A DNA stretch of 64,000 bases from Hymenobacter canadensis (GTDB lineage Bacteria; Bacteroidota; Bacteroidia; Cytophagales; Hymenobacteraceae): NCBI RefSeq assembly GCF_027359925.1, contig NZ_CP114767.1, forward strand, positions 930,001 to 994,000. The letters run 5' to 3'. A program made the translations under genes and the position numbers. Of the stretch, positions 8 to 60,966 are shown in pieces. The notes beneath the pieces were generated by a model, which saw only the letters and a program-made list of their open reading frames with translations, was not told the origin of the DNA and made no database searches. Each line of letters opens with the position of its first letter. Positions within the stretch are counted from its first letter, which is position 1.

Positions 8-161
8 TAAGGGTGATGAGGTGAACCGTGACAGGTTATAGGTCACAGATAAACCGCCCCGCCACCAACCCGTAGAAAGCCAGACGGCGAAGCACCTTGC
101 TTCGCCGTCTGGCTTTTTGCCTTACTTTGGCCCACCTATCACCTCATCACTTCATCACCAA
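8..161. repeat. Nested inverted arms of TGATGAGG/CACCTCATCAC words around a terminator
   Basis: The left arm (about 8-45) repeats GGTGATGAGG- and GTGACAGG-like words. The right arm (about 130-160) carries their reverse complement, CACCTATCACCTCATCAC-like. A perfect terminator hairpin lies between them. The right arm runs up to the start of the HIT gene. No gene end can be assigned in the first 75 bases. Confidence 0.6.
76..118 (+). terminator. Rho-independent terminator of an upstream gene
   Basis: An 18-bp perfect stem (76-93 with 100-117) with a 6-nt loop ends in a T-run on the plus strand. It should terminate a plus-strand gene lying before the window. Confidence 0.8.
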
Positions 162-169
162 CCACCCCA

Positions 170-1063
170 ATGGCTTCCATTTTCTCGCGTATTGTGTCGG
201 GCGAGCTGCCCGCGTATAAAGTAGCCGAGGACGACCAGCACCTGGCGTTTCTCGACATCACGCCGCTGGTGGAAGGCCACACGCTGGTGATTCCGAAGCG
301 CGAAATCGACTACATCTTTGATATGCCAGCCGAGGAGCTGGCGGCGCTGCACCTGTTTGCGCAGCGTGTGGCCAAGGGCGTGCAGGCCGCCGTGCCGTGC
401 AAGCGGATTGGGGTGGCCGTTATCGGGCTGGAAGTGCCGCACGCCCACATTCACCTGATTCCGATGAACAAGGTGGCGGACATGAACTTCGCCAACCCCA
501 AAATCAAGGTGGCCGAAGACCGGATGAAGGAGCTGGCCGCCGCCATTGCCGCGCAGGTGCCCGCCGCCGCCGGTAGCCGCACCGCCTCACTAGACGCCCT
601 GGACACCAAAGGCGGCCGTGAAACCGCCTCGGCCAACGAGCCCGCTGCTTCCGCTGCGGACGCCGCCCCGGCCGACAGCAGCACGGCGCAGCTGCAGCAG
701 CTCACGAAGGGGCTGCTGTTCCTGAGTGAGTCGGATGCGGCGCTGGAGCCAGTGAGCTACGACGCACCGGCCGGCCCGCTGACCGATGCGGCGCTGCTGC
801 AGGCCGTAGGGGCCGAAGCCGGCAGCAAAGTGGAAACCCAGGAGCTGACCCTGTTTCTGCGCAACCACACCGCCGACGACGGCGTGCTCGGCGACCCGGC
901 CCAGGCAAACCGCTTCAAGGCGCTGCAGATGTACCTGAAGCAGGAGCTGCAGGACGTGAAAGTGTACCGCGTAGGTACCGGCCCGCAGGTGCAGGCCTAC
1001 GCCCTCGGCCGCACCGAAAGCGGCAAGCTGGCCGGCTTCAAAACCGTGCTGACGGAAACGTAG
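170..1063 (+). CDS. HIT-family hydrolase fused to a NuiA-like nuclease inhibitor domain
   Basis: Two domains are visible in 297 residues. Residues 1-130 are a HIT protein with the catalytic histidine triad HAHIHL at 91-96; this family hydrolyses or transfers nucleotidyl groups on purine (di)nucleotides. An Ala/Ser-rich linker covers about 131-172. Residues 175-297 match the nuclease A inhibitor NuiA: GLLFLSES at 181-188, VYRVG at 265-269, GKLAG at 285-289 and a final Thr. In cyanobacterial NuiA, Glu24 and the C-terminal Thr135 bridge the nuclease metal; the equivalents here are Glu187 and Thr297. Neither half has a signal peptide, so the protein is cytoplasmic. A NucA-type nuclease lies at 5576-7006. 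The HIT call is near certain and the inhibitor call strong by motif; what the fusion does is unknown. Confidence 0.9.
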   Translation: MASIFSRIVSGELPAYKVAEDDQHLAFLDITPLVEGHTLVIPKREIDYIFDMPAEELAALHLFAQRVAKGVQAAVPCKRIGVAVIGLEVPHAHIHLIPMNKVADMNFANPKIKVAEDRMKELAAAIAAQVPAAAGSRTASLDALDTKGGRETASANEPAASAADAAPADSSTAQLQQLTKGLLFLSESDAALEPVSYDAPAGPLTDAALLQAVGAEAGSKVETQELTLFLRNHTADDGVLGDPAQANRFKALQMYLKQELQDVKVYRVGTGPQVQAYALGRTESGKLAGFKTVLTET

Positions 1064-1068
1064 GAAAT

Positions 1069-1095
1069 GTGGCACGGACTTCAGTCCGTAGCCAC
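1069..1095. repeat. Short hairpin of the ACGGACTTCAGTCCGT repeat family
   Basis: A compact palindrome lies just after the HIT-NuiA stop. It has the same core as the larger inverted pair at 7636-7729, so it is a small member of a dispersed family. Confidence 0.7.
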
Positions 1096-1150
1096 CCGGC
1101 ATCGCACAAGCTATGCTCCAATGGGGAATCCTACTATGCAGATACTTTGT

Positions 1151-1187
1151 GGTGCCGCACTCCTTCGGGGCGGCACCACTTTTTTGT
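1151..1187 (+). terminator. Terminator after the HIT-NuiA gene
   Basis: An 8-bp GC-rich stem (1151-1158 with 1170-1177) is followed by CACTTTTTT. It ends about 12 bases before the peptidase start, so the two genes are probably separate transcripts. Confidence 0.7.
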
Positions 1188-1198
1188 GAATTGATTGC

Positions 1199-2851
1199 AT
1201 GATTATGAAGCCACTAACTGCCTCCGTGCTGAGCGCGCTGCTTCTGCTAAGCAGCGCGGCCCACAGCCAGTCCGGTAAAAACCTGCCCAAACCCCTTCGC
1301 AAACCGCTGAGCAGCATCAGCCCGGCCGGGTTCAAGGCCCACGTGCAGTTCCTAGCCGACGACCAGCTGCGCGGGCGGCAGCCGGGCACGCCGGGCTACA
1401 AAATGGCTGTCGACTACGTGGTGGCGCAGCTGCAGCAGCGCGGCGTGCAGCCGGCCGGCGAAAACGGCACGTTCCTGCAAACTGTGCAACTGCGGCGCGC
1501 CATCACGGAAGCGGGGGCCACGTTGCGCCTGATACCGGCCGGCCCGGCTAGCACGCTGGCCTATGGCACTGACTTCACGCTGTACCCCAACCCCGTACAG
1601 CCGGAAACGACCGTGGAGGCCGGGCTGGTGTTTGCCGGTTTCGGCATCAGCGCGCCAGAGCTGGGGTATGACGACTACGCCGGCCTCGATGCCCGAGGCA
1701 AGGTGGTGGTGCTGACGCGGCTGGAGCCCACGCGCTTCCCCGACGCCGTGCGCCTCTACAACACCGACCTACTGACCGTGCTGCAAACCGCCGCCCGCCA
1801 CGGCGCCGTGGGCGTGCTGCTGGCCGCTCCCAAGTCCACGATGAAGCTGCCCGATCCGCCGAAAGGCCTCGTGAGCGTGCTGGGGCCCGATGGAAAAGTG
1901 GCGGTGTCACGCAGCTTCCAGCCGCAGATTCAGGTGGCGGGCTCCATCAGCGCGGCCACGTTGCAGCGGCTGTTTGCGGGGGCGGCCACCGATACCGCGC
2001 GGGCCATGGCTGCGCTGCGGGCCGGCAAACCGGCTTCGGTGGCGCTGCTGCCGCGCTTGGCCGCCACCCAACGCAGCCGCTACCAGGACGTGACCAGCTA
2101 CAACGTGGTGGGCAAAATCGAAGGCGCCGACCCGCAGCTGCGGCAGGAGTACGTGGTGCACACCGCTCACCTCGACCACCTCGGCGTGGGCGCCCCCGTG
2201 GCCGGCGACTCCATCTACAACGGCGCCCACGACAACGCCACCGGCGTAGCGACGCTGCTGGAAATTGCGGGCGTGTATCAGCAGCTGAAGCCACAGCAGC
2301 GGCCGAAACGCTCGGTACTGCTGACGGTGGTGACGGGGGAGGAGCTGGGCCTGCTGGGCTCGGCGTACTTTGCCCGCAACCCCACCGTGCCCCGCGAAAA
2401 GCTGGTGGCCAACGTCAACACCGATATGCCCACCATCATTGCGCCGCTGCTGTCGGTGGTGGCGCTAGGGGCCGAAAACTCCACGCTGGCCGCGCCGGTG
2501 GCGGAGGCGGCGCGGACGCTGGGCCTCACGGTGGAAGCCGACCCTGAGCCGGCCCAGAACCGCTTCATCCGCTCCGACCAGTACAGCTTCGTGACGCAGG
2601 GCATTCCAGCGCTGCACATCAAGTACGGCAACAAAACGGCCGACGGCCGCAACAACCTCAGCGAGCAGGTGCAGAAGTGGCGCGCCGTCACGTACCACAA
2701 GCCCCAGGACGATATCAACGGTCAGTTTGATTTCGAGGCCGGCAAAACCTACGCCCAGCTGAACTTTCTGGTGGGCTATCTGGTGGCCAATTCCGCGCAG
2801 CGGCCTGCCTGGAACCCGGGCAACTTCTTCGGGGAACGGTTTGGCAAGTAG
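1199..2851 (+). CDS. Secreted M28-family zinc aminopeptidase with PA-like insert
   Basis: A 550-residue exported metallopeptidase. Residues 1-24 form a signal peptide ending in AHSQS. The middle part (about 130-290) resembles a PA-type insert, as is usual in M28 peptidases of Bacteroidota. The catalytic part shows the expected ligands: HLDH at about 324-327, GAHDNATG near 343-350, EELGLLGS near 381 and NTDMP. These residues hold two zinc ions that cleave N-terminal residues from peptides. Start: the ATG at 1199 is followed two codons later by another ATG (1205) that would also give a good signal peptide. The gene ends 3 bp from the convergent AI-2E gene with no terminator between. Confidence 0.93.
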   Translation: MIMKPLTASVLSALLLLSSAAHSQSGKNLPKPLRKPLSSISPAGFKAHVQFLADDQLRGRQPGTPGYKMAVDYVVAQLQQRGVQPAGENGTFLQTVQLRRAITEAGATLRLIPAGPASTLAYGTDFTLYPNPVQPETTVEAGLVFAGFGISAPELGYDDYAGLDARGKVVVLTRLEPTRFPDAVRLYNTDLLTVLQTAARHGAVGVLLAAPKSTMKLPDPPKGLVSVLGPDGKVAVSRSFQPQIQVAGSISAATLQRLFAGAATDTARAMAALRAGKPASVALLPRLAATQRSRYQDVTSYNVVGKIEGADPQLRQEYVVHTAHLDHLGVGAPVAGDSIYNGAHDNATGVATLLEIAGVYQQLKPQQRPKRSVLLTVVTGEELGLLGSAYFARNPTVPREKLVANVNTDMPTIIAPLLSVVALGAENSTLAAPVAEAARTLGLTVEADPEPAQNRFIRSDQYSFVTQGIPALHIKYGNKTADGRNNLSEQVQKWRAVTYHKPQDDINGQFDFEAGKTYAQLNFLVGYLVANSAQRPAWNPGNFFGERFGK

Positions 2852-2854
2852 CGG

Positions 2855-3904: not shown

Positions 3905-3942
3905 GGCGGCGGGAATGGGCGGTGAACAGGACAGTATACCAT

Positions 3943-3981
3943 AAAAAAACGGTCATCCGGAAGCCGTGGCTCCCGGATGAC
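3943..3981 (-). terminator. Terminator of the MFS transporter gene
   Basis: Arms of 14 bp with one mismatch (3952-3965 with 3968-3981) are followed on the minus strand by CCGTTTTTTTAT. Confidence 0.85.
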
Positions 3982-4007
3982 AGTGGTCTGGTGCGCCAGT
4001 TGGCAGA

Positions 4008-5180: not shown

Positions 5181-5315
5181 AGAATCGGGCAGAAGAACCA
5201 ACAGGAAAACCGGGCCGCCATAGCCCACAAAAAAGCCCACTACACCCTTGTGGCGGGGTATGATGGGCGGGAGAGGGAGGACAGGGGCGGCAGCTGCGCC
5301 AGGGCGCAGCCGCCA

Positions 5316-5323
5316 CAAAGATA
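5316..5323 (-). promoter_or_regulatory. Bacteroidota -7 box (TATCTTTG) for the MFS gene
   Basis: An exact match to TAnnTTTG on the minus strand, about 135 bases before the preferred MFS start. No clear TTTG -33 element is visible at the usual distance. The 395-base gap 5181-5575 holds this box and the long inverted repeat; I see nothing else in it. Confidence 0.4.
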
Positions 5324-5466
5324 CCACTCAATCAGGAAGTTGCAGGCAGCGCAGAAATGCCCCGCCGCCCATCAGGGGGAAGATGGCAGAAAAGCACTTT
5401 ACGGCGCTATTGGTTCCCGGATGAAAGCTGGAGCAAGGTGGGAAGCAAAGCCGTGCTGTGTATGAA

Positions 5467-5560
5467 CGTCATGCTGAGCTTGCCTAAGCATCTCTGCTGC
5501 TTCGTTGTAGTGCCAATTGATTAGCCTCGGTAGAGATGCTTCGGCAAGCTCAGCATGACG
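5467..5560. repeat. Long inverted repeat, GTCATGCTGAGC family
   Basis: Arms 5467-5495 and 5532-5560 pair at 28 of 29 positions around a 36-nt spacer. It lies 15 bases after the nuclease stop, between two minus-strand genes. Confidence 0.85.
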
Positions 5561-5575
5561 GTCTATTAAGAAGTT

Positions 5576-7625: not shown

Positions 7626-7635
7626 GGTGCGGGGC

Positions 7636-7729
7636 TGTGGCACGGACTTTAGTCCGTAGCCCGTCTGCGCGGGGGCATCTGTGCAAGCAGGAGCAACGGT
7701 GCGGGCTACGGGCTGAAGTCCGTGCTACA
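7636..7729. repeat. Inverted repeat of the CACGGACTTTAGTCCGTAGCCC family
   Basis: Arms 7636-7662 and 7703-7729 match at 24 of 27 positions. Each arm is itself partly palindromic. It sits between convergent genes and can act as a terminator-like structure, though no T-run follows. Confidence 0.75.
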
Positions 7730-7749
7730 CGCGGGGGAGCAGGCGCCTC

Positions 7750-12462: not shown

Positions 12463-12489
12463 GGTGGCGGCCTGACAAGGTTAATAAGT

Positions 12490-12587
12490 AAGCCCGTCAT
12501 GCTGAGCGGAGCGAAGCATCTCGCTAGTGTGGTAGAATCATTTACCACACTAGCGAGATGCTTCGCTCCGCTCAGCATGACGGGCTT
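12490..12587. repeat. Perfect 45-bp inverted repeat, GTCATGCTGAGC family
   Basis: Arms 12490-12534 and 12543-12587 are perfect reverse complements with an 8-nt loop. The right arm ends one base before the stop codon of the aldehyde dehydrogenase. It lies between two convergent genes. Confidence 0.95.
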
Positions 12588-16469: not shown

Positions 16470-16808
16470 ATGGAAAAGTCAACGTATTACAACCCCGCCG
16501 ATCTGGCCAAATTTGGCAATATCACCGAGTGGCAGCCCGAAATGGGCAACAAGTTTTTCGCTTACTATGCCGAGGTGTTTAAGGAAGGCGCGCTTTCGGA
16601 GCGGGAAAAGGCGCTGATTGCGCTGGCAGTGGCCCACGCCGTGCAATGCCCCTACTGCATCGATGCCTACACGTCGGACTCGCTGCAGAAAGGCGCCGAC
16701 GAAGCCCAGATGATGGAGGCCGTGCACGTTGCCGCCGCCATCAAGGGCGGAGCCGCTTTGGTGCACGGCGTTCAGATGATGAACAAGGCCAAGGAACTAT
16801 CGATGTGA
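16470..16808 (+). CDS. AhpD/CMD-family peroxidase-like protein of the arsenosugar set
   Basis: A 112-residue alpha-helical protein of the carboxymuconolactone decarboxylase/AhpD superfamily. EREKALIALAVAHAVQCPYC gives the redox CxxC (Cys60, Cys63). The residue aligned with the usual AhpD His after CxxC is Tyr, as in the arsenosugar-associated branch. The protein probably reduces peroxides or handles a thiol step. The gene lies between the H-NOX (57-base gap) and the radical SAM ArsS gene, and this pairing with ArsS is seen in many genomes. The assignment to the branch rests on the context and the CPYCIDAYT motif. Confidence 0.88.
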   Translation: MEKSTYYNPADLAKFGNITEWQPEMGNKFFAYYAEVFKEGALSEREKALIALAVAHAVQCPYCIDAYTSDSLQKGADEAQMMEAVHVAAAIKGGAALVHGVQMMNKAKELSM

Positions 16809-16936
16809 ATCGCTGATTTGTGCTGATTGAGGTGATTCCGCTGATTTCCTTTGGTCAGACCTTATGGCCTTTTCAGTAGCAACTTCTGGTGACCAACGAT
16901 CAGTGAAATCAATTCAATCAGCGTAAATCAGCGATT
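16808..16936. repeat. Inverted arms of CGCTGATT words
   Basis: Left arm 16808-16828 and right arm 16916-16936 pair at 19 of 21 positions. Both sides repeat a GCTGATT/AATCAGC word. The right arm ends next to the ArsS start codon. The 129-base gap holds nothing else. Confidence 0.75.
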
Positions 16937-18812: not shown

Positions 18813-19442
18813 ATGTCTGCCACCAGTGCCAACCCTGCTCACCAGCACCTGCTCGTTTTTGCCCGTCATCCGGAGCTAGGCAAGGTGAAAACCCGGCTGG
18901 CCGCCGGCATCGGCAATGAAGCAGCGCTGGCCGTGTACCGGGAGCTGCTGGCCCATACCCGCGCCGTGGCGCAGGAGCTGCCCGCCCACAAAACCGTGTG
19001 GCTGGCCGAAACCCCCACGACCACCCCCGACAGCGCCGACGCCTGGCCGGATTACGAGCAGCAACTGCAGTTTTCCGGTGACCTGGGCACTCGCATGCTC
19101 ACAGCATTTGCCCACGCTTTCAACCAGGGTGCCCGCGCCGTACTCATCGTTGGGACGGATTGCCCGGGTTTGTCCACGGCTATTCTGGAGCAGGCGTACG
19201 CCGCGCTGGCTACGCACGACCTGGTTGTAGGGCCGGCTGAGGATGGAGGGTATTACCTATTGGGAATGAAAGAGTTGTGTGAGGACATTTTTCTGGGGAA
19301 AAGCTGGAGCACCGACTCCGTGCTGGCCCATACCCTGGCCGACGCCGACCGGCTGGGCCTGACCGTCGCGCAGCTGCCCACGCTGCGCGACGTAGACGAT
19401 GCCGCCGACCTGGCCGCCTGGCGCGCCATCTCCGGCGCGTAG
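18813..19442 (+). CDS. TIGR04282-type arsenosugar glycosyltransferase (CofC/GT-A-like)
   Basis: A 209-residue cytoplasmic protein from ATG 18813; the frame opens earlier at TTG 18795. The N-terminus HLLVFARHPELGKVKTRLA is the nucleotide-sugar loop with RLA; GTDCPGL supplies the metal DxC variant, and VGPAEDGGYYLLGM the acceptor region. This combination marks the family placed with arsenosugar genes. It would transfer a sugar in or near that pathway; the acceptor is unknown. It converges with the GT87-like gene, separated by 33 bases. Confidence 0.87.
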   Translation: MSATSANPAHQHLLVFARHPELGKVKTRLAAGIGNEAALAVYRELLAHTRAVAQELPAHKTVWLAETPTTTPDSADAWPDYEQQLQFSGDLGTRMLTAFAHAFNQGARAVLIVGTDCPGLSTAILEQAYAALATHDLVVGPAEDGGYYLLGMKELCEDIFLGKSWSTDSVLAHTLADADRLGLTVAQLPTLRDVDDAADLAAWRAISGA

Positions 19443-19475
19443 AAGCCGGGGCCGGATTCAAGCGTCGGACAGCAG

Positions 19476-20894
19476 CTAAACAGCCGGGCGCGCCAGCCGC
19501 TGCCGATAATCCCAAAGCATTGCGCCCAGCAGCCCGCCGTATTCCAGCGCCAGCAGCCACGGATTCTCAGTGTAGGCCGTGGTCTGGTAGGCCGCGTACG
19601 ACAACACCACCAGCCCCGACCACACGAAGGTGTAGCGGTAGCGCGTGAACACGCTCAGGGCCAGCAGCGGCGTCAGATACCACGGGTGCACGATGGTGGC
19701 CAGCAGGTAGTAGCCCGTGAGCAGCAGCAGCAGCGTGGCGGGCAGCGTGGTCCAGGTTGGGCGTTTCTCGCCGAAGGTCAGCAGCAGAATCCAGGCCACG
19801 CTGCCCAGCGCCAGCGCCGGCCCGATGCGGGCAATCTGGTTGTAGCCGGTGAGCCAGTAACCGCCGGCGCGCAGCAGGTAATACACGCTTGCGTTGAACT
19901 CGAAGCTGCGAAAATACAGGTCGAGGCTGCGGCCGATATTGCGGGCCAGCTCCGCCGATACAAACGGCGCGAATAGCAGCGCCACAGTCAGCAGCGTGAG
20001 GGTGCCGTAGGCTGCCGTGCGCCACCAGCCCAGCCGGCGCAGTAGCAGCGGCAGCAGCAGCAGCGGCAGCAGCTTGGTGCCCACCGCCAGCCCCAGCGCC
20101 CCCGCCGATATTGCCCAGCGCCCGCGCGTCAGCAGCCACAGCGCCAGCAGCAGCAGCGTCACCACCAAGGCCTCGAAGTGCAGGTTGCCGGTCAGCTCCA
20201 CGAGTACCAACGGGTTGAGCAGATACCACAACGCCCGTTGCCGGGGCAGCCCCAGCTGCCGCAGCAGTGCCAGCAGCAACCCGGCCGTGGCGGCTTCGGC
20301 CAGCAGCAGTACCAGCCGCATCAGCAGTACCGCTCCTCGCTCGTGGTGCGGAAAGATTCCCGAAGCCACCCCAAATACCGCCTGGCACACCGGCGGATAC
20401 ACGGAGTAGTAGTGCGGCGAGTTCAGCTTCGGATAGAGTGTCCGGAGTTCCTTGGTGGCGGGTAGGGGCGAGGTGGTTGCCGGCCGGGGCGAGGTCGGCT
20501 TGGCCTGGACCCCAGCCGCAGAATCATCCGCTACGAGTTCATCCGGGCTGAACAGGTAAGGGTTGAGGCCGGCGGCCACCAGCAGGCCGTCCCAGCGGAA
20601 ACGGTGGTAGTCGTCGGAGAGGGCGGGGAGGGCCGGCAGCCACAGCAGCCGCAGCAGCAGCGCCGCCAGCAGGCCCGCCCGCAGCGGCAGCCGCGAGTGC
20701 AGCAGCCACGCATACGCCCCAAACGCTACCCCAAACAGGCCCAGCAGCTGCCCGAATTCTGCCCGTGGCGTGGCGTAGGCCAGCCCCGCATACGCCCCGC
20801 CGGAAACCAGCAGCGCCAGCAATTGCCGGCCGCTTATCGGCCGCGAATCGTTAGCAAGCGGTTCGGGTGAGTGGGTGTCCGTCAGGCTGTTCAT
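19476..20894 (-). CDS. Polytopic glycosyltransferase, GT87/DUF2029-like
   Basis: A 472-residue integral membrane protein with about twelve hydrophobic spans. The frame runs to 20978, but the ATG at 20894 gives the first hydrophilic segment before helix 1. Family features include SDDYHRFRWDG after the second span (an acidic catalytic pair), the long loop YSVYPPV, and YHPW-like ATIVHPWYL. Such enzymes use polyprenyl-phosphate sugar. It is the last gene of a three-gene minus-strand run (23243 to 19476), although the repeat at 22427-22531 interrupts it. Confidence 0.75.
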   Translation of the reverse strand: MNSLTDTHSPEPLANDSRPISGRQLLALLVSGGAYAGLAYATPRAEFGQLLGLFGVAFGAYAWLLHSRLPLRAGLLAALLLRLLWLPALPALSDDYHRFRWDGLLVAAGLNPYLFSPDELVADDSAAGVQAKPTSPRPATTSPLPATKELRTLYPKLNSPHYYSVYPPVCQAVFGVASGIFPHHERGAVLLMRLVLLLAEAATAGLLLALLRQLGLPRQRALWYLLNPLVLVELTGNLHFEALVVTLLLLALWLLTRGRWAISAGALGLAVGTKLLPLLLLPLLLRRLGWWRTAAYGTLTLLTVALLFAPFVSAELARNIGRSLDLYFRSFEFNASVYYLLRAGGYWLTGYNQIARIGPALALGSVAWILLLTFGEKRPTWTTLPATLLLLLTGYYLLATIVHPWYLTPLLALSVFTRYRYTFVWSGLVVLSYAAYQTTAYTENPWLLALEYGGLLGAMLWDYRQRLARPAV

Positions 20895-22407: not shown

Positions 22408-22426
22408 TTCAAAAAATGACTAAAGA

Positions 22427-22531
22427 GAACGTCATGCAGAGGCGGAGCCGAAGCATCTCGCGTGCTGAGGTTGAGTTACTAATCCTGAGTAGGCAAGCGA
22501 GATGCTTCGGCTGCGCCTCTGCATGACGTTC
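22427..22531. repeat. Long inverted repeat, GTCATGCAGAGGCGGAGCCGAAGCATCTC variant
   Basis: Arms 22427-22461 and 22497-22531 match at 34 of 35 positions around a 35-nt spacer. It lies between two co-oriented glycosyltransferase genes. Confidence 0.9.
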
Positions 22532-22553
22532 TTACTTGCACAAGATCAACTCA

Positions 22554-30182: not shown

Positions 30183-30299
30183 AGCTGAGTTGTTGAGTAA
30201 CTGAGTAAAGTGAGTAACTAAGTAGTTGTTCTGAGGACATCAATTGCGCGGATAGCAGAATGATTGCTCAGCTACTCAGCCCACTCAGTTACTCCTTGA
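30183..30299. repeat. Inverted arms of GAGTAACTGAGTA words
   Basis: The left arm (about 30183-30235) repeats GAGTAACTGAGT; the right arm (about 30265-30298) carries CTCAGCTACTCAGCC and CACTCAGTTACTCC. They pair as an imperfect stem. The block lies between the two redox genes, and its right arm touches the oxidoreductase stop. Confidence 0.65.
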
Positions 30300-33290: not shown

Positions 33291-33400
33291 TTGAGTACTT
33301 AGAGTATTGAGTAAGCTGCTATGAGAGTTAAGAGGAGGCTTGGCTGAGTTTCAACACCTACACAACTTTCTCACTACCAAGGATTCAATACTCACTACCG
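33291..33400. repeat. Inverted arms of AGTATTGAGTA words
   Basis: The left arm (33291-33314) carries TTGAGTACTTAGAGTATTGAGTA; the right arm (33371-33399) carries CACTACC and TTCAATACTCACTACC. The perfect palindrome at 33405-33446 follows directly. Confidence 0.5.
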
Positions 33401-35870: not shown

Positions 35871-36398
35871 CTAAAACTCGCTGCGGTCGTACCAGCTGCG
35901 CATGCGCCACGGGTCGCCTTTCTGGCGGCGCACCAGCACCAGCCGCGCCGAGCCGGCCCCGCTGAACTGCTGGTTGTCACGCTGCTCGATGCTGAGCTGG
36001 AAGGCCCGCTCCACGTACACGAGCGTGTCGGAAAACAGCGTGTCGGTGGTGGGCAGGTACTGGGTCCACTGCAGGTTGGCGGTGCGCGAGGCCCGGAACA
36101 GGCGGTAGGTGGTGGCAATTTCCACGTCGCGGTTCCAGGTGCGGTCCACGTTGGCCGCGAAGTCGCGGTACGTGAACGTGAAGCGCCGGTCGAGCAGCTG
36201 GCCGTAGAGCGTGGAGTCGCGCAGCTGGTAGGCGCTGCGGAACCGCTCGAAAAAGCCGCGCACCGTCACGGGGTTGCCCAACAGCTGGTTGGGGTCGGTG
36301 GGCTGGTCGTCGAGGCCGGGGGCGAAAGGGTTGCAGCCCGCGGCCCCCACGGCGCAGAGGGTAACTGAGTAGCGGAGTAGCTGAGTGAGTCGGGGCAT
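35871..36398 (-). CDS. Lipoprotein, NTF2-like, paralogue 1 of a tandem pair
   Basis: A 175-residue lipoprotein; lipobox GAAGCN. The mature part starts with FFERFRSAYQLRDSTLYGQLLDRRFTFTYRDF, the helix-strand pattern of NTF2-like or SnoaL proteins, and ends LVLVRRQKGDPWRMRSWYDRSEF. It is paralogous to the next gene. Its first codons lie in the left arm of the ACTCAGCTACTC repeat, which therefore encodes part of the signal peptide (LTQLLRYSV). No catalytic role is visible. Confidence 0.75.
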   Translation of the reverse strand: MPRLTQLLRYSVTLCAVGAAGCNPFAPGLDDQPTDPNQLLGNPVTVRGFFERFRSAYQLRDSTLYGQLLDRRFTFTYRDFAANVDRTWNRDVEIATTYRLFRASRTANLQWTQYLPTTDTLFSDTLVYVERAFQLSIEQRDNQQFSGAGSARLVLVRRQKGDPWRMRSWYDRSEF

Positions 36399-36473
36399 AG
36401 GCGGATACGCGGCAGTGACAGGTAAAATAAATTACTCAGCTACTCAGCTACTCAACTGCTCAGCTACTCTTCA
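36361..36473. repeat. Inverted arms of GAGTAGCTGAGT words running into a coding start
   Basis: The left arm (36361-36391) repeats GAGTAGCTGAGT inside the start of the 35871-36398 gene. The right arm (about 36432-36473) repeats ACTCAGCTACTC. The 72-base gap between the two paralogous lipoproteins is otherwise free. Confidence 0.7.
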
Positions 36474-41269: not shown

Positions 41270-41430
41270 GTGGTGGGTTTGTGGGGTAGTGGGTTGGTGG
41301 ATTTATCGTCATCCTAAGCAAAGCGAAGGACCTTATCACGCGTGAACGATTAATGCCGTAACGGCTCGTGTACGTGTGATGAGGTCCTTCGCAAGCTCAG
41401 GATGACATCACTCCACCAACCCGCCAACCC
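41270..41430. repeat. Nested arms of GGTGGGTTGGTGG words around a GTCATCCTGAGC palindrome
   Basis: The left outer arm (about 41270-41302) is GGTGGTGGGTTTGTGGGGTAGTGGGTTGGTGG-like; the right outer arm (about 41410-41430) is CTCCACCAACCCGCCAACCCC-like. The inner arms (41308-41339 and 41376-41406) pair imperfectly as GTCATCCT(A/G)AGC...GAAGGACCT(T/C)ATCAC. It is between two convergent genes. Confidence 0.8.
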
Positions 41431-44032: not shown

Positions 44033-44067
44033 GAACGTCATTCCGAGTGGAGCGAGGAATGACGTTC
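44033..44067. repeat. Minimal GTCATTCCGAGC-family hairpin
   Basis: Arms 44033-44044 and 44056-44067 (12 bp, perfect) flank GAGTGGAGCGA. It is a short member of the family seen in full at 45044-45148. It starts at the base after the flippase stop. Confidence 0.8.
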
Positions 44068-44111
44068 TTACTTTGTCATCCCATCACCTGTCACCTCATC
44101 ACCAAAAAATA

Positions 44112-45020
44112 ATGACGCCTCTGGTTACCATCGTAGCGCTTTGCTACAACCACGCCCGCTTCCTGCGGCCCGCGCTGGATTCCATTCTGGCCCAGACGTA
44201 CCCGCTGCTGGAGGTGTTTCTGGTGGACGATGGCAGCACCGACGACAGCGTAGCGATACTGCACGAGTACGCCGCCGCGCATCCGGAGTGGAAAACCGTG
44301 TTTCTGCCCGAAAACATCGGCAACTGCGCGGCCTTCAACCGGGCTTTCTTCCAGAGCCAGGGAGAATTTCTTATCGACTTTGCTACCGATGACATCCTGC
44401 TGCCCGAGCGGGTCGCGCGGCAGGTGGCGCGGTTTCAGGAGCTGGATGTCAGCTACGGCATGCTCTACGGCAACGTGGCGCTGCACACCGAGGCCGGGGA
44501 GTTTCAGCGGCTGTTTCACGCTCCCGGCCCTACGGGTGCGCTGCAGCCGGCTCCCGCATCGGGCTGGGTGTTTGAGGACGTGCTACGCCGGTTTTTCATC
44601 AGCGCGCCGTCCATGATGATGCGGCGCGCCACGCTGGAGCAGCTCAACGGCTACGACGAAACGCTGGCCTACGAGGACTTCGATTTCTGGGTGCGCGCCT
44701 CTCGCAGCTGGCAGTTCAGCTACCAGGATGAAATCCTGACCGAAAAGCGCCTGCATCCCCGTTCCATGTCGGCACAGGGCTACCGCCCCGGCGACCCGCT
44801 GGTGGCCTCCACCATCCGCATCTGCCACAAAGCCGCCGCCCTCTGCCGCACCGCGCCCGAGCGCCAGGCGCTGGCCGAGCGGGTGCGCTGGGAGCTGCGC
44901 CAGGCCGCCCGCTGGGGCAACCTCCCCGAGGCCCGCGACCTGTACGCCCTGCTGCGCGAGCTGGGCGGCGCCGGGCTGATTGAGCACGGAATCGGGGTGT
45001 ATCTGAAGGTGAGGGGGTGA
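44112..45020 (+). CDS. GT2 glycosyltransferase
   Basis: A 302-residue GT-A enzyme from ATG 44112. The N-terminus LVTIVALCYNHARFLRPALDSILAQTYPLLEVFLVDDGSTDDS holds the nucleotide-sugar site. FATDDI gives the metal DxD-like site and NGYDETLAYEDFDFWVRAS the catalytic region. It follows the flippase gene by 79 bases and probably adds a sugar to the same lipid-linked glycan. The ATG lies in a right arm of CACCTGTCACCTCATCACC words. Its stop lies in the left arm of the next repeat. Confidence 0.9.
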   Translation: MTPLVTIVALCYNHARFLRPALDSILAQTYPLLEVFLVDDGSTDDSVAILHEYAAAHPEWKTVFLPENIGNCAAFNRAFFQSQGEFLIDFATDDILLPERVARQVARFQELDVSYGMLYGNVALHTEAGEFQRLFHAPGPTGALQPAPASGWVFEDVLRRFFISAPSMMMRRATLEQLNGYDETLAYEDFDFWVRASRSWQFSYQDEILTEKRLHPRSMSAQGYRPGDPLVASTIRICHKAAALCRTAPERQALAERVRWELRQAARWGNLPEARDLYALLRELGGAGLIEHGIGVYLKVRG

Positions 45021-45191
45021 TGAGGTGATGAGGGGTCAACGTTAAGAACGTCATTCCGAGCGGAGCGAGGAATCTCGCGTGCTGACGTTGGATTACCATT
45101 GCAACGTCAGCACGCGAGATTCCTCGCTCCGCTCGGAATGACGTTCTTTATTTACCTGTCACCTGTCACCTGTCACCTGTCACCTGTCACC
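45013..45191. repeat. Nested arms (GGTGATGAGG / CACCTGTCAC words) around a perfect 47-bp inverted repeat
   Basis: The inner arms 45044-45090 and 45102-45148 are perfect reverse complements with an 11-nt loop. The outer left arm (45013-45037) carries GGTGATGAGGTGATGAGG and contains the stop of the GT2 gene. The outer right arm (45155-45190) has five CACCTGT copies and contains the stop codon of the 45180-46862 gene. Confidence 0.9.
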
Positions 45192-46869: not shown

Positions 46870-47138
46870 AAGATGGTGATTAAGTGATGAGGTGAAAAGG
46901 TGATGAAGTCATGAAGTGATGAGGTGAAAAGACAATGGGGTTATGAAGTGATGAGGTAAGTGGGGCGCTGTCATCCTGAGCTTGCGAAAGACCTTTTCAT
47001 AGCTGTACAACTGGCCCTGGAGCAAATCAGCCTACCTCTTCGGAAATTTCGTGACACCGGTTGGTTCTCACGTGGGAAGGTCCTTCACAAGCTCAGGATG
47101 ACAGCTACCTTTACTCACCTCATCACCTCATCACCCCG
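46870..47138. repeat. Nested arms of TGATGAAGTGATGAGG words around a GTCATCCTGAGC palindrome
   Basis: The left outer arm (about 46870-46960) repeats GTGATGAGGTG- and GTGATGAAGTG-like words. The right outer arm (about 47110-47136) has CACCTCATCACCTCATCACC. The inner arms are 46967-46995 and 47077-47105 (imperfect, 81-nt spacer). It lies between divergent genes, so its role is not only termination. Confidence 0.8.
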
Positions 47139-49914: not shown

Positions 49915-50110
49915 AATCACGGATTTTTCCGGATTAAGCGGATTGGTCGGATTTCGTAGTCGGCGCTGATCCGGCTTCATGTCAACCAACTGAGCATATA
50001 AAAAAAGGAGGCTTGCCATTCGGCAAGCCTCCTTTTTTTGCTTTCCGGTTACGTGATGAAGTCAGCTACAAAAGCCGACTCATCCGACTAATCCGGAAAA
50101 ATCCGTGATT
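49915..50110. repeat. 22-bp perfect inverted repeat with GGATTA words around a terminator
   Basis: The outer arms 49915-49936 and 50089-50110 are perfect reverse complements (AATCACGGATTTTTCCGGATTA type). Both sides repeat a TCGGATT/AATCCGA word. The core is the terminator at 50000-50039. Confidence 0.9.
50000..50039. terminator. Bidirectional terminator between the desaturase and lipoprotein genes
   Basis: A perfect stem of AAAAAAAGGAGGCTTGCC type with its complement and a 4-nt loop. A-run left, T-run right, serving both convergent genes. Confidence 0.9.
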
Positions 50111-51428: not shown

Positions 51429-51592
51429 AGTGGGTTTTAGTTGTCAGTTGCTGGGTGGTAGTTGTCGGTTTTTAGTTGATAATTATCAGGTAATGTCAGT
51501 AAAACATCTAGTCCTGACACCCGACAACCACTACCTGACAACTCCCAATTACTCCCCGACAACTAAAAACCGGCTTCTGTTGTTCTGAGAGC
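51429..51592. repeat. Inverted arms of TAGTTGTCAGTTG words
   Basis: The left arm (about 51429-51490) repeats TAGTTGTC(A/G)GTT words. The right arm (about 51517-51572) repeats CCGACAACTA and CCTGACAACTC. It lies between the divergent DUF427 and VWA genes. Confidence 0.7.
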
Positions 51593-51609
51593 TCACTCCC
51601 CCAATTATT

Positions 51610-52716: not shown

Positions 52717-52735
52717 CGGCTGAACGGCCTCGCAC

Positions 52736-52834
52736 TTGTCATCCTGAGCTTGCGAAGGACCTTATTACATCAGCACGACGACCGAATAGTTTCGTTCCAG
52801 CGTGATAAGGTTCTTCGCAAGCTCAGGATGACAA
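52736..52834. repeat. Inverted repeat of the GTCATCCTGAGC family inside the VWA-AAA pair
   Basis: The arms 52736-52767 and 52803-52834 match at 30 of 32 positions around a 35-nt spacer. It is inserted between two co-oriented, functionally linked genes. Confidence 0.9.
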
Positions 52835-52867
52835 ATCAAATCCATTCGCTCATTCTATTCTCCCTTC

Positions 52868-55872: not shown

Positions 55873-55920
55873 TTGGTGTTGTGCCGGCTTGAGGACTTGC
55901 TCCGCCGGGCCAGTCCGGAC

Positions 55921-56805: not shown

Positions 56806-56812
56806 AGGAGAA

Positions 56813-56998
56813 TGAAGTTATGAGGTGATGGGGTGATGGGGTGTTGAGGTGACAGGTAACGAAGAACGTCATGCTGAGCTTGTCGGAGCATCTCGCGTGC
56901 TGATGTTGCAATAGTAGTCAGGCATCAGCACGCGAGATGCTTCGACAAGCTCAGCATGACGTTCTTACGTTCTACGCCTTGTCACCTCATCACCAAAA
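56813..56998. repeat. Nested arms of TGATGGGGTGATG words around a GTCATGCTGAGC palindrome
   Basis: The outer left arm (about 56813-56858) repeats GATGAGGTGATGGGGTGATG; the outer right arm (about 56979-56996) has GTCACCTCATCACC. The inner arms 56862-56905 and 56923-56966 match at 43 of 44 positions with a 17-nt loop. Confidence 0.9.
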
Positions 56999-57003
56999 GA
57001 CAC

Positions 57004-57930
57004 CTATTTCCGGTTGTCGTCGGCCTGCTGCATGCTCACGTAGCTGTCGTAGCGGGGCAGGGCAATGCGGCCTTTGTCGACGGCTTCGCGCACGGCGCAG
57101 CCGGGCTCGTGCAGGTGCTGGCAGTTGTGGTAGCGGCACTGGTTGAGCAGGGCGCGCATCTCGGGGAAATAGTGGGCCAGCTCGCCGGCCTTCATATCCA
57201 CCAAGCCCAGCTCCTTGATGCCGGGCGTGTCGATGAGGAAGGTGCCGGGGCGCACTTCCAGCATCTCGGCAAACGTGGTGGTGTGCACACCCTTGTCGGA
57301 AAACTGGCTGATTTCGGCGGTTTTCAGGTCCAGATCGGGCACCAGCACGTTGATGAGCGTGCTCTTGCCGACGCCGGAGTGGCCGGAAAGTAGCGTGGTT
57401 TTGCCGTTGAGCTGGGCGTCGATTTCCGCCACGCCCTCGCCGGTGTGCGCCGAGCAGCGCATGCCCGGGTAGCCGATGCGCTGGTACATGTCCAGGATCT
57501 GCTGCTGGTAATCGGTCAGGTCTTCGTCGTAGAGGTCGGTTTTGTTGAAGAGCAGCGTCACGGGAATCCGGTAGGCCTCGGCCGTCACCAGAAACCGGTC
57601 GATGAAGCCGAACGAGGTAGCCGGCGAGGCCAGCGTCACGACCAGCATGGCTTGGTCGAGGTTGGCGGCCACAATGTGGGCGTGCTCACTCTTGTGCACC
57701 GAGCGCCGGATGATGTAGTTGCGGCGCGGCTCGATATGGTGAATCACGCCGGCGCCCTCGGTTTGCTCTTCCACCGTGAAGGCCACCTCGTCGCCCACGG
57801 CCAGCGGGTTGCTCACCTTCAGGCCCTTGATTTTGAACTTGCCCCGCAGCCGGCAGCGGTGCAGCTGCCCCGTGCCGGTTTCGCGCACCACATACCACGA
57901 GCCCGTGGATCTTACGATAGTACCAGTCAT
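57004..57930 (-). CDS. rsgA: Ribosome biogenesis GTPase RsgA
   Basis: A 308-residue circularly permuted GTPase. An N-terminal OB fold is followed by the G-domain in permuted order: NKTDL (G4) precedes SGHSGVGKSTLIN (G1) and DTPGIKEL (G3). The C-terminal zinc finger reads CRYHNCQHLHEPGC. It binds the 30S subunit and helps its late maturation. A TATCTTTG box lies 42 bases upstream. Confidence 0.96.
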   Translation of the reverse strand: MTGTIVRSTGSWYVVRETGTGQLHRCRLRGKFKIKGLKVSNPLAVGDEVAFTVEEQTEGAGVIHHIEPRRNYIIRRSVHKSEHAHIVAANLDQAMLVVTLASPATSFGFIDRFLVTAEAYRIPVTLLFNKTDLYDEDLTDYQQQILDMYQRIGYPGMRCSAHTGEGVAEIDAQLNGKTTLLSGHSGVGKSTLINVLVPDLDLKTAEISQFSDKGVHTTTFAEMLEVRPGTFLIDTPGIKELGLVDMKAGELAHYFPEMRALLNQCRYHNCQHLHEPGCAVREAVDKGRIALPRYDSYVSMQQADDNRK

Positions 57931-57971
57931 GAAAGGTCAGGGACTTGAATAATTGTTAGGTGCAGTGACGA

Positions 57972-57979
57972 CAAAGATA
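57972..57979 (-). promoter_or_regulatory. -7 box TATCTTTG for rsgA
   Basis: An exact TAnnTTTG match on the minus strand; it directly abuts the palindrome block at 57980-58081. Confidence 0.45.
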
Positions 57980-58081
57980 CTGTCATCCTGAGCTTGCGAA
58001 GGACCTTATAGCACGGGAACGAGGTACTAATACTCTTATCGTTCAGGCGTGGGAAGATCCTTCGCAAGCTCAGAATGACAG
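57980..58081. repeat. Inverted repeat, GTCATCCTGAGC family
   Basis: The arms 57980-58007 and 58054-58081 match at 26 of 28 positions around a 46-nt spacer. It is between two co-oriented genes. Confidence 0.85.
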
Positions 58082-58085
58082 CTGC

Positions 58086-59330
58086 TTAGCTATTCTTTTC
58101 AAGCCACTGCATGATTTTGTGCGTGGCGCCGCTGTGGTCGTGCACATAGTCGAGGCTGAGGTCCTGCACTTTCAGGCGCGACTCTTCCTCGTGAAACAGG
58201 AGCCCGAAAGCCCGCAGCAGCTCCTCGGCCGACGTCACCGGGAAGGCGCAGCCCAGATCCACCAGATCTTCGGCTTCCTGAAACTTGTGGTAGGTCGGCC
58301 CGAAAAACAGCGGCAGGCCAAAAGCAGCGGCTTCCAGCGTGTTGTGTAGGCCCTTGCCGAAAGCGCCACCTACATAGGCAAAATGCCCGAACCGGTACAG
58401 CTGGCTGAGCAGCCCCACGTTGTCGATGAGCAGCACCCGGGCCTGGGCCACGGTGGCGGGCTCGGCCCGGGAGTAGCGCACCACCTGGCCGGGCAGCACG
58501 TCCTCCACCAGCCGCAGGGTAGTGTCGCTGATTTCGTGGGGTGCCACAATGAAGCGTATCTGCGGGGCGTACTGGCGCATCAGCGGCGTGAGGGCCGGCA
58601 GGTCTTCGGGCCAGCTGCTGCCAATGATGAACACCGGCACCCAGTCGTCGGTGAAGGCGTCTACCAGCGGCAACGGCCGGGACGCGGCCGCGGCGGTGCG
58701 CACCACCGTGTCGAAGCGGGTGTCGCCGGCCACGCTGGCCTGCCGGATGCCGGCGCCGCGCAGCAGTTCGGCCGAGGCCTGGTTCTGGGTGAAGATGTGC
58801 GTGAAGCAGCCCAGGATTTTGCGGAAGAATCCGCCCCAGGGTTGGAAAAACAGCTGCTCGGGCCGGAAAATAGCCGACACGCAGAGGGTGGTAATGTGCC
58901 GCCGATGCAGCTCGGCCAGAAAGAAATACCAGAATTCGTACTTCACGAAGACGGCCAGCTGCGGCTGCACCGCGTCGAGGAAGGCGCGGGCATTGGCGGC
59001 CGTGTCCAGCGGCAGGTAGAAAATGTAGTGGGCGCCGGGCCAGTTTTTGCGCACCTCGTAGCCGGAGGGCGAAAAGAACGTCAGCACGATTTTGTGGCCG
59101 GGGTAGCGGGCGGCGTAAGCCTCCATCAGGGGGCGGCCCTGCTCAAACTCGCCCAGCGAGGCGCAGTGAAACCAGGCCAGCGGCGCAGTTTCGGCCTGCA
59201 GAGCCGCCTGAATCCGGGGTAGCAGCCCCTGCCGCCCCTGCACCCACTGGGCCGCTTTGGGCACAAAAGGTGCTGCCAGCTGCAGCAGCCACGCATACAG
59301 GCGCAGAACGATGGAATAGAGAAAAGGCAA
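58086..59330 (-). CDS. waaA: 3-deoxy-D-manno-octulosonic acid (KDO) transferase
   Basis: A 414-residue GT-B enzyme. One N-terminal membrane helix is followed by WFHCASLGEFEQGRPL (catalytic Glu), FFSPSGYEV, YEFWYFFL and the C-terminal GGAFGKGLHNTLEAAAFGLPLFFGP segment that binds CMP-KDO. It adds KDO to lipid A, so the organism makes lipopolysaccharide. Start: TTG at 59330 is the only in-frame codon that keeps the first helix. Confidence 0.94.
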   Translation of the reverse strand: MPFLYSIVLRLYAWLLQLAAPFVPKAAQWVQGRQGLLPRIQAALQAETAPLAWFHCASLGEFEQGRPLMEAYAARYPGHKIVLTFFSPSGYEVRKNWPGAHYIFYLPLDTAANARAFLDAVQPQLAVFVKYEFWYFFLAELHRRHITTLCVSAIFRPEQLFFQPWGGFFRKILGCFTHIFTQNQASAELLRGAGIRQASVAGDTRFDTVVRTAAAASRPLPLVDAFTDDWVPVFIIGSSWPEDLPALTPLMRQYAPQIRFIVAPHEISDTTLRLVEDVLPGQVVRYSRAEPATVAQARVLLIDNVGLLSQLYRFGHFAYVGGAFGKGLHNTLEAAAFGLPLFFGPTYHKFQEAEDLVDLGCAFPVTSAEELLRAFGLLFHEEESRLKVQDLSLDYVHDHSGATHKIMQWLEKNS

Positions 59331-59525
59331 TTGTCAGTGCTTAGTGCTTGGCGCTTCGTGCTTAGACAACGAAATGGTAGCAGCGTGTTCAGAAGCCCAA
59401 ACGAGCATTCGTTCAGACGAGAGTCCGCAAAAATAGGCTTTTGCCTGCAGGCGAACTAAAAAAGGCTCCGACGTATCCGCCGGAGCCTTTTAAAAGCCCT
59501 GTGCACTATGCACAAAGCATTAATT
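59326..59525. repeat. Inverted arms of CAGTGCTTAGTGCTT words around a terminator
   Basis: The left arm (about 59326-59366) repeats AGTGCTTGGCGCTTCGTGCTTAG; the right arm (about 59497-59525) has TGTGCACTATGCACAAAGCATTAATTGC. The core is the terminator at 59458-59494. Confidence 0.6.
59458..59494 (-). terminator. Terminator of the peroxiredoxin gene
   Basis: Arms AAAAGGCTCCG (59459-59470) and CGGAGCCTTTT (59481-59491) with a T-run on the minus strand, 33 bases after the peroxiredoxin stop. Confidence 0.85.
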
Positions 59526-59526
59526 G

Positions 59527-60165
59527 CTAGTGGTTGGCCTGCTTGCCGAGGTAGTTGGCTACGCCCTCGCGGGTGGCCGACATAGCCTCTTTGCCTTCTT
59601 CCCAGTTAGCGGGGCAGACTTCGCCTTTCACCTCGAAGTACTGCAGGGCATCCACCATACGCATGGCTTCGTCGATGCTGCGGCCGAGGGGGCCGTCGTT
59701 TACTACCTGGTGGCGCACGATGCCGTCCTTATCAATCAGGAACAGGCCGCGGTAGGCGAGGGGCGAGCCGACGAAGGTCATTTCGCCGGCCTCATTGTAG
59801 TCGTAGTGGCCGCCGAGCACGTCGTAGTTAGCCGCAATGGTTTTGGTAGCATCGGCCACCAGCGGATACTTTACGCCTTCGATGCCGCCGTTGTCGCGCG
59901 GCGTCTGCAGCCAGGCAAAGTGCGAGAAGTGCGTGTCCGTCGAGCAGCCCACCACGGCTACACCCTTGGCCTCAAAGTCGGCCAGACGATCCTGGAAGGC
60001 AATGATTTCGGTAGGGCAAACGAACGTGAAGTCGGCGGGGTAGAAGTAGAAGATAACGTGCTTCTTGCCCAGGTAACGGTCGAGGGAGAAATCCTCTTCG
60101 AATTCGCTGTCGATAACAGCGGTAGCTTTGAAAGAAGGGGCACGCTTGCCTACGAGAACTGCCAT
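59527..60165 (-). CDS. Typical 2-Cys peroxiredoxin (AhpC/Prx1 type)
   Basis: A 212-residue peroxiredoxin from ATG 60165; the frame opens earlier at 60285. FYPADFTFVCPTE contains the peroxidatic Cys; the resolving Cys is in GEVCPANW near the C-terminus. It reduces H2O2 and organic peroxides. The next gene upstream is a Fur/PerR-type regulator on the same strand, separated by 185 bases, which fits peroxide-controlled regulation. Confidence 0.96.
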   Translation of the reverse strand: MAVLVGKRAPSFKATAVIDSEFEEDFSLDRYLGKKHVIFYFYPADFTFVCPTEIIAFQDRLADFEAKGVAVVGCSTDTHFSHFAWLQTPRDNGGIEGVKYPLVADATKTIAANYDVLGGHYDYNEAGEMTFVGSPLAYRGLFLIDKDGIVRHQVVNDGPLGRSIDEAMRMVDALQYFEVKGEVCPANWEEGKEAMSATREGVANYLGKQANH

Positions 60166-60350
60166 TTTGGGGTGATTAAGTGTTGGGTAATGAGGTGATT
60201 GAGCGTTGTGAAGCCAGCAAATAGCCGGGTCGAAAAAAAGAAATTGGGAAGAGTGGCCAGGCAGGTGGCCGGCTGGTTTCAGCAAACCTGATCAGTCGTT
60301 TGCACTGTATAGCGCCAGTTGCTGGCGTTCAGCTACCGGCCTGCCGATGC

Positions 60351-60800
60351 TTACCCTGCCACCTTCTCGCCGGTGATATGCAGCGAAAAGGTATGGGCCT
60401 GAAAGCCGGGCATGTTACGTTGCGCGAAGAACTCCTGCAGCAGCGTGTCCAACTGCGAATCGTGGAAATCCATGATTTCCTGCGTGTCGGTACAGATCAG
60501 GTGATGGTGGGCTGAGCAGTCGGCGTCGTAGCGGCGGGAAGAGCCTTCGGCCGACGCCACGCGGCGCGTGAGCCCCACTTCCACAAACGAGTCGAGGGCT
60601 TTGTACACGGTACCCAACGAGAGGTTGGGCACCTGCGCCACCACCTGTCGATGCACCTGCTCGGCAGTGGGATGCCCAGGCAGCTGCAGCAGGCACTCCA
60701 GAATGGTAAGGCGCTGCCGGGTAGCCCGCAGGCCAGCTTTGGCCAGCCGGTCGCGCAGTTGGCCCGGAGTGGGCGGCGTATGGTCGGAATGAAAGGTCAC
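60351..60800 (-). CDS. Fur-family regulator, PerR-like
   Basis: A 149-residue protein with GTG start. The winged helix (LRDRLAKAGLRATRQRLTILECLLQ and LSLGTVYKALDSFVEVGL) is followed by the dimer and metal domain with DADCSAHHHLICTDT, where His and Asp residues form the regulatory site. The C-terminal CxxC zinc pairs usual in Fur/PerR are absent. It probably senses peroxide or iron and controls the downstream peroxiredoxin gene; that is an inference from order. The promoter pair TTTG/TATCTTTG lies before it. Confidence 0.9.
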   Translation of the reverse strand: MTFHSDHTPPTPGQLRDRLAKAGLRATRQRLTILECLLQLPGHPTAEQVHRQVVAQVPNLSLGTVYKALDSFVEVGLTRRVASAEGSSRRYDADCSAHHHLICTDTQEIMDFHDSQLDTLLQEFFAQRNMPGFQAHTFSLHITGEKVAG

Positions 60801-60820
60801 TATATAAGAATGCTTCTCCG

Positions 60821-60853
60821 CAAAGATAAGGCTATAAGCCCGCCAGTCCCAAA
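60821..60853 (-). promoter_or_regulatory. Bacteroidota-type promoter of the fur-like gene
   Basis: TATCTTTG at 60821-60828 with TTTG at 60850-60853, a 21-nt spacer, close to the consensus TTTG-N19-TAnnTTTG. The predicted leader is very short. Confidence 0.65.
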
Positions 60854-60883
60854 AATGTTCAGTCAGGCCGTTGGAAGGGAGTT

Positions 60884-60966
60884 GTTAATTGTCAGTTGTT
60901 CGTTGTTAGAAGCCGCACGCTGCAGGTGCATTTTGCCTGACAACTGACAACGAACAACAAACAACT
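60884..60966. repeat. Inverted arms of GTTGTCAGTTGT words
   Basis: The left arm (about 60884-60910) carries GTTGTTAATTGTCAGTTGTTCGTTG; the right arm (about 60936-60966) carries TGACAACTGACAACGAACAACAAACAAC. It lies between the aspartate kinase stop and the fur-like promoter. Confidence 0.75.

Follow-up and report, generated by a model that had tools for sequence, protein, structure and literature searches.

In a 64,000-nucleotide stretch of the Hymenobacter canadensis genome (contig NZ_CP114767.1, positions 930,001 to 994,000; hereafter the window), thirteen spaces between genes hold hairpin-like blocks whose arms consist of short repeated words. Comparison with related genomes suggests that the two arms of such a block are kept alike by local copying, through template switching during replication; on sequence evidence we consider this the best account of arm agreement and put its probability at roughly 0.6. 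Direct reading bears out the layout described in an initial annotation of this DNA: each of the 13 coordinates shows a degenerate word to the left of a core and, on the right, its reverse complement or a near relative. The cores are terminators, repetitive extragenic palindrome (REP)-like palindromes or plain loops. We scored the arms alone by comparing the outer 45 bases or fewer on each side with 1000 dinucleotide shuffles of the left side, a strict test, since the shuffle preserves the dinucleotides of a repetitive arm. The blocks and their arms-only results are as follows.

8 to 161, unstranded: block with word TGATGAGG/GGTGA and a terminator-like hairpin as core; 2/1000.
16808 to 16936, unstranded: block with word GCTGATT at a period of 9-10, arms at 16808-16845 (left) and 16899-16936 (right); 0/1000.
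30183 to 30299, unstranded: block with word TGAGTAAC and a plain loop; 3/1000.
33291 to 33400, unstranded: weak block with word TTGAGTA; 56/1000, fold z -0.4 and -2.0.
36361 to 36473, unstranded: block with word TGAGTAGC at a period of 8; 0/1000.
41270 to 41430, unstranded: block with word TGGTGGGT and the REP-like palindrome GTCATCC..GGATGAC as core; 0/1000.
45013 to 45191, unstranded: block with unequal words, TGATGAGG on the left and GGTGACA (5.4 copies) on the right, and the REP-like core palindrome GAACGTCATTCCGAGC; 68/1000 for the arms alone.
46870 to 47138, unstranded: block with divergent genes on either side, word TGATGAGG and a REP-like core; 0/1000.
49915 to 50110, unstranded: block with word CGGATT at a period of 9-10 and a terminator core, arms at 49915-49959 (left) and 50066-50110 (right); 0/1000.
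51429 to 51592, unstranded: block with divergent genes on either side and word GTTGTCAG; 32/1000.
56813 to 56998, unstranded: block with word TGATGGGG/TGATGAGG and a REP-like core; 21/1000.
59326 to 59525, unstranded: weak block with word TTAGTGC at a period of 7 and a terminator core; 34/1000.
60884 to 60966, unstranded: block with word GTTGTCAG/GTTGTTC at a period of 7 and a plain loop; 0/1000.

This list of 13, taken from the initial annotation, is incomplete: at 44033-44111 a REP-like palindrome is followed by an array of the right-arm type (CATCACCTGTCACCTCATCACC) with no left arm, forming a half block. The claim that the blocks share no homology proved wrong, as four word families cover 11 of the 13. 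TGATGAGG is common to the blocks at 8, 45013, 46870 and 56813, TGAGTA to those at 30183, 33291 and 36361, nGATT to those at 16808 and 49915, and GTTGTCAG to those at 51429 and 60884; in two relatives one family is alike across arms plus loop. The word length of about 7 was stated loosely: among the blocks with a G-rich 5' arm from nine genomes of the genus, period 7 is the commonest (69/138), but periods of 8 (49), 9 (13) and others (7) also occur. Dispersed palindrome families (GTCATCCTGAGC.., GTCATGCTGAGC.., TGTGGCACGGACTTTAGTCCG..) lie in the window at 5241-5575, 7626-7749, 12463-12587, 22408-22553, 52717-52867 and 57892-58085, and further palindromes such as TGTAGAGACGCAATATTTTGCGTCTC are present elsewhere in the same genome (G000).

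In the arms-only test, 6 of the 13 blocks gave at most 1/1000 and 8 at most 3/1000, with the other five at 21-68/1000. Among the other gaps of the window, 4/31 gave at most 1/1000 (12463, 22408 and 52717, with GTCAT-type REP-like palindromes, and 7626, with another palindrome), and 0/104 coding segments reached 0/300. By an exact-6-mer statistic, 8/13 blocks stood at 0-1 of 200 shuffles and 1/41 other gaps (26405) at 0; for the 56813 block the scoring word lies in the core. With the core counted in, 12/13 blocks give better folds than their shuffles on both strands, the exception being 33291. The check at genome scale covered 864 kb, made up of the window and a further 800 kb of its genome, with genes called by our own codon-score script and not taken from the published annotation; 494 gaps of 80-450 bases were compared with 40 shuffles each. 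An inverted pair and a tandem array, both unmatched by shuffles, occurred together in 13.0% of these gaps versus 0/494 coding controls. The best inverted pair with a loop of at least 20 bases was unmatched in 43.7% of gaps, a figure much of which is made up of REP-like palindromes, versus 2.2% of 494 coding controls, and the tandem array in 16.6% versus 4.5%. Across 2.34 Mb from the nine genomes, array blocks stand in 165 of 1428 gaps of 60-500 bases. That chance or base composition produces the blocks has a negligible probability: 7/13 blocks fail to reach 1/1000 on their arms alone, but the coding controls lead us to reject this account, and the polarity described below also speaks against it.

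The behavior of the arms was followed in the sister species G034 and G002, whose median flank identity is 93.5% over 229 orthologous gaps. We used 219 of these, leaving out gaps under 60 bases: 174 had no arms, 9 and 10 had arms in one species only, and 26 had arms in both, counts that include a few GC-type palindromes. A four-way column count was made on 19 of the 26 two-species gaps, those with C-poor arms, after 7 with a skew below 0.25 in either species had been dropped. Its 476 columns comprise 326 identical, 47 concerted, 20 arm-specific, 69 single and 14 other columns, and 0 crosswise ones. The two arms tend to change together, and some arms change alone. Whole units are also gained and lost within an arm, and in the gap at G034 181093-181409 both G002 arms have a 7-base unit that both G034 arms lack. 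At gap 148821 the arms are matched over 35/35 bases in G002 and mismatched in G034, and the core of the loop takes the opposite orientation, with scores of 25 forward and 9 reversed in G034 and of 10 and 29 in G002. When all arms from the sampled part of a genome are compared, no other arm outscores a block's own partner in 31/56 blocks of G000, 19/25 of G034, 20/27 of G002, 11/12 of G015, 6/6 of G004 and 5/5 of G019.

Template switching has been reported to homogenise arms and invert spacers (PMC8604942 and PMC8794818), and one passage there cites earlier work in which it was inferred for proteobacterial inverted repeats that are short and non-coding. Arm homogenisation within a lineage is what the concerted columns display, and spacer inversion may be indicated by core scores in one case (148821). 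In the mechanism that we propose, a block would be an intergenic hairpin with a stem made of a degenerate array of 7-9-base words. Slippage by a unit would make an arm longer or shorter, and template switching during replication would use one arm as template to restore or rewrite its partner. Both arms would then drift together and the loop would be able to flip, a pattern drawn from the species comparison, with the enzymatic steps suggested by published work. Blocks would begin at the stop codon and end some 13 bases short of the next start codon, probably since only that space tolerates them. The words themselves would not be local inventions but members of a small set, C-poor in the 5' arm and dispersed genome-wide and partly between phyla; they might be spread by horizontal transfer or as a tiny hairpin element that host enzymes mobilise, which is a guess.

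The local copying suggested in the initial annotation is consistent with the concerted columns and the lack of crosswise ones, with gap 148821, with unit gain and loss and with the missing wobble signature described below, but shared words and word swaps do not follow from it. Several points weigh against this reading. Five of the 13 window blocks are weak on arms alone. Most of the concerted columns (28/47) come from three gaps with different whole words, which copying alone does not explain, and without them the count is 19 versus 0; gap 167944 contributes 6 more, maybe from a misaligned expanded array, leaving 13 versus 0. Single-arm changes are seen at 167944, 247285 and 266281. The changes are unpolarised and come from species-level pairs. 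The loop flip at 148821 rests on core scores and could be an inversion of the whole block, and an automatic inverted-loop test called 0/21 gaps. In G000, 25/56 blocks match another block's arm better than their own partner, as expected from shared words. Local copying is inadequate alone because the same word stands in about 12/56 blocks of one genome and, among the matches listed, in seven phyla, and copying within a gap is inadequate alone because both arms of the same gap carry a different word in a sister species.

Such word swaps between G034 and G002 were found at 112725, 113899, 331938 and 374234, where flank alignment reaches the gene ends, or nearly so, and both arms differ in word. 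At 374234 GAATTAT in one species faces GGGACTTG in the other, and the GGGACTTG block is one of a dispersed family whose members resemble each other in the arms as well as the loop. Orthologous gaps among G015, G026, G029 and G003 likewise carry different words or none. One G002 block, picked from 155 matches, can be aligned, loop as well as arms, to 13 further sites in G002 and G034 at 74-83%. By word, the 56 blocks of G000 include 12 with GTTGTCAG, 9 with TGAGTAAC, 8 with TGATGAGG and 6 with GAATTAA. A single loop core for all words was considered and rejected: 7/124 loops beat all 60 shuffles, four of them from the GGGACTTG family. Other gaps showed changes of a different kind. The G002 counterpart of gap G034:C24:146218-146496 has about 860 extra bases, owing to an insertion sequence (IS)-like insertion that interrupts the right arm of a TTAGTGC block. 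At locus L071 and in the orthologous gaps of G029, G015 and G003, a one-sided TAAGCTC array lies directly against the stop codon of a convergent gene, with a copy number ranging from about 1 to 8 among these four relatives. In the G019 gap orthologous to the G004 stretch position 19366-19479, a 9-base TATTATGAA array lengthens the gap by 160 bases in one of the two close species.

The words also recur far outside the genus. At least 116 stretches contain the nested GTTGTCAG pattern in exact form, and 30 of the 80 listed, all 30 of them inspected, are non-Hymenobacter; among the matches listed, these fall in Bacteroidota, Cyanobacteria, Acidobacteria, Planctomycetes, Chloroflexi (Ardenticatenia), Desulfobacterota and Schekmanbacteria, phyla that we assigned from the record titles, many of the records being metagenome-assembled genomes. 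Arm 8-mers of other-phyla loci without the GTTGTCAG word are found in Hymenobacter arms in 218/1380 cases, versus 101 when shuffled (maximum 134) and 38 when read outward. The genome of locus L204 (G444, Desulfococcaceae HSG8) has 17 nested GTTGTCAG places, overlaps counted, several of them nearly perfect palindromes with the common centre TTGCAA.

Because an inverted repeat reads alike from either strand, the position of the G-rich arm is a feature of the hairpin itself. In all 13 window blocks the G-rich, C-poor arm is on the 5' side. Among the 165 array blocks of the nine genomes, the 5' arm is G-rich in 138, C-rich in 13 and neutral in 14, and for period-7/8 blocks the count is 118 G-rich versus 5 C-rich of 132, the remainder being neutral. 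One of these five exceptions is truly array-like (CTCACCCCCTAACCCCC, a period-8 palindrome), and the remaining four comprise GC-rich palindromes, one C-run and one terminator-like pair. The 5' arm averages 34% G, 32% T, 25% A and 9% C. REP-like pairs are without polarity (45 versus 47 of 97), and non-REP pairs outside array gaps lean to G-rich (80 versus 46 of 138). Nested GTTGTCAGTTGT..ACAACTGACAAC occurs at 21 places in 3/296 Bacteroidota genomes and its outward mirror image at 0; in 26 genomes picked for having at least one such place the count is 76 versus 0 outward, with overlapping matches in one array counted apart. Period-7/8 blocks with other words at the other-phyla loci are G-rich by 15 versus 2, but blocks of other periods there have no such polarity (6 versus 11 of 19). 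A palindrome, CTCACCCCCTAACCCCCTCTCC, at about G000:C1 3545841 (L063) has the opposite, C-rich polarity, and similar C-rich palindromes are found in G034 and G002. Neither the polarity nor the reuse of words across blocks and phyla figured in the initial annotation. Inheritance from few founders, directional template switching or selection for inward stop codons are possible sources of the polarity; directional switching has been proposed for RNA stems (PMC8794818).

Placement between genes is also regular. Where an arm meets a stop codon, its outer end lies at a median of +1 base, with 75% of 140 ends within 5 bases, and the median distance from start codons is 13 bases (136 ends). Gaps between tandem genes hold 86/113 blocks versus 727/1097 of gaps (p 0.02), and divergent-gene gaps 14/113 versus 205/1097. 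The arms could be arrays of inward-reading stops, selected to guard gaps against read-through from either strand; the polarity would follow as well. Read inward, the arms hold 10.3 stops per 100 bases, versus 4.0 outward and 7.4 for inward arms after shuffling. Trimming 9 bases from the outer end of every arm gives 9.8, 3.6 and 7.1, respectively, so the excess is not merely the gene's own stop codon. However, GTTGTCAG, the commonest word of G000, contains no stop, and a tRNA intron, which is not expected to be translated, has the same words with the same polarity; we regard this account as improbable. Selection on RNA stems at mRNA ends or for intercistronic stability, with pairing kept by compensatory substitution, would agree with the folding of 12/13 blocks, the arm ends at stop codons and the slight preference for tandem gaps. 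Selected paired RNA is expected to have more GU than AC mismatches in co-directional gaps, but we counted 130 GU-type and 134 AC-type (p 0.85). Since GU mismatches are not favoured, DNA-level template-switch copying is a better fit than RNA selection. Some blocks, moreover, stand between divergent genes, and whole-word differences are far from stepwise compensation; we hold RNA selection to be unlikely, if less so than stop arrays.

A stronger contender, to which we give somewhat less than an even chance, is that whole blocks, arms and loop together, are copies of tiny non-coding mobile hairpins that insert between genes and displace one another. The family recurring at 13 further places, the four orthologous gaps with conserved flanks and different words, and the nested GTTGTCAG blocks in seven phyla among the matches listed all favour it. 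Against it, the clean empty sites in relatives that mark a miniature inverted-repeat transposable element (MITE) numbered zero for the 49 blocks with an orthologous gap; 5/49 partners are more than 35 bases shorter, through array length, loop deletion or REP-like insertion. Loops resembled another loop of the same genome beyond 25 shuffles in only 9/45 cases in G000, several via REP or word pieces, and in 0/21 in G034, 7/23 in G002 and 0/7 in G015. No target duplications were noticed, though no systematic search was made. The Y1 transposase family PF01797 is found in 83/120 genomes of the genus but in none of G034, which has blocks, and G068, G093 and G098, which have arrays, and a Y1 mobiliser (REP-associated tyrosine transposase, RAYT) is rejected as a requirement. 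Telomerase-like addition of repeats at both 3' ends of a break, followed by joining, would account for the polarity and the variable cores, but degenerate units are mirrored in the same order (35/35 bases at 148821 in G002), unlike independent addition; with mirrored order already found in several blocks, we consider it very unlikely. Template-switch copying remains our preferred account of arm agreement. A wider picture, which we offer tentatively and at clearly longer odds, combines it with mobility: a class of non-coding hairpins with C-poor stem words of 7-9 bases and fixed polarity in at least seven bacterial phyla, spreading and displacing its own kind at fixed gaps, its arms kept alike by replication copying, would be a selfish element that conserves geometry and composition, not sequence.

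Short tandemly repeated repetitive (STRR) sequences of the cyanobacterial type are tandem heptamer repeats with degenerate 7-base units. The blocks resemble them in being dispersed between genes with shared words; 7 is the best period in half of the 138 blocks with a G-rich 5' arm. One word, ttgtcagttgtcagttgtca, is given as occurring 44 times in Nostoc 7120 (PMC2408588). The small dispersed repeats of Nostoc, treated by Elhai et al. in 2008, are reportedly tiny hairpins that often sit within heptamer arrays; they measure 21-27 bases and have a conserved core. The closest precedents are the facing GGGAATC repeats of Xanthomonas and the P6b stem of Nostoc trnL. The GGGAATC and GGGGA(C/T)T heptamers of Xanthomonas and Nostoc (Rehm et al. 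2015, PMC4692102) likewise form intergenic arrays that vary between close species; two Xanthomonas genomes have 70 and 75 cases of nearby convergent array pairs, facing with the same G-rich-inward placement as the window blocks. They differ in having G-tract words able to form quadruplexes, most window words lacking GGG by eye, and the portions of that paper available contain no two-arm comparison, word swaps or many-phyla word set.

The P6b stem of the cyanobacterial tRNA-Leu intron carries heptamers TDNGATT or NNTGAGT, which by eye match the words of five window blocks (16808 and 49915, and 30183, 33291 and 36361), and keeps its structure while the word class has shifted repeatedly (PMC4476775, PMC3488679), including repeated class II to class I shifts (PMC4476775). 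Unlike the blocks, it is a single locus inside a self-splicing intron; the window gives zero Rfam RNA-family matches, and so no group I intron, at the gathering threshold. In the cyanobacterial introns L292, L293 and L294 the P6b 5' arm is of TTTAGATTTGNGATT or GGTGAGTGCTGAGT type and the 3' arm C/A-rich, with the same polarity, and a fourth, L295, contains no array. TAACTGA heptamers (MacGregor 2015, PMC4679880) are intergenic in Beggiatoaceae, Cyanobacteria and some Bacteroidetes and often stand just before start codons, like the right arms here, but are treated as direct repeats, with one indirect repeat in the main genome. Template-switch quasi-palindromes share arm homogenisation and, perhaps, loop inversion with the blocks, and RNA stems in that work have an excess of G-C over C-G and of U-A over A-U orientation; the parts of those papers available (PMC8604942, PMC8794818) draw no link to repeated-word arrays or word swaps. 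In the literature covered, with most subscription papers outside it, we found no report of a cross-word polarity rule, of two-arm concert in such arrays or of a cross-phylum word set.

If this reading is true, stem covariation, usually taken to mark a functional RNA, would arise at many intergenic sites from DNA copying alone. It would also tie the reports on STRR sequences, P6b word shifts, GGGAATC and TAACTGA into one phenomenon with a common polarity, and it would pose a further question, namely what carries the words between phyla.

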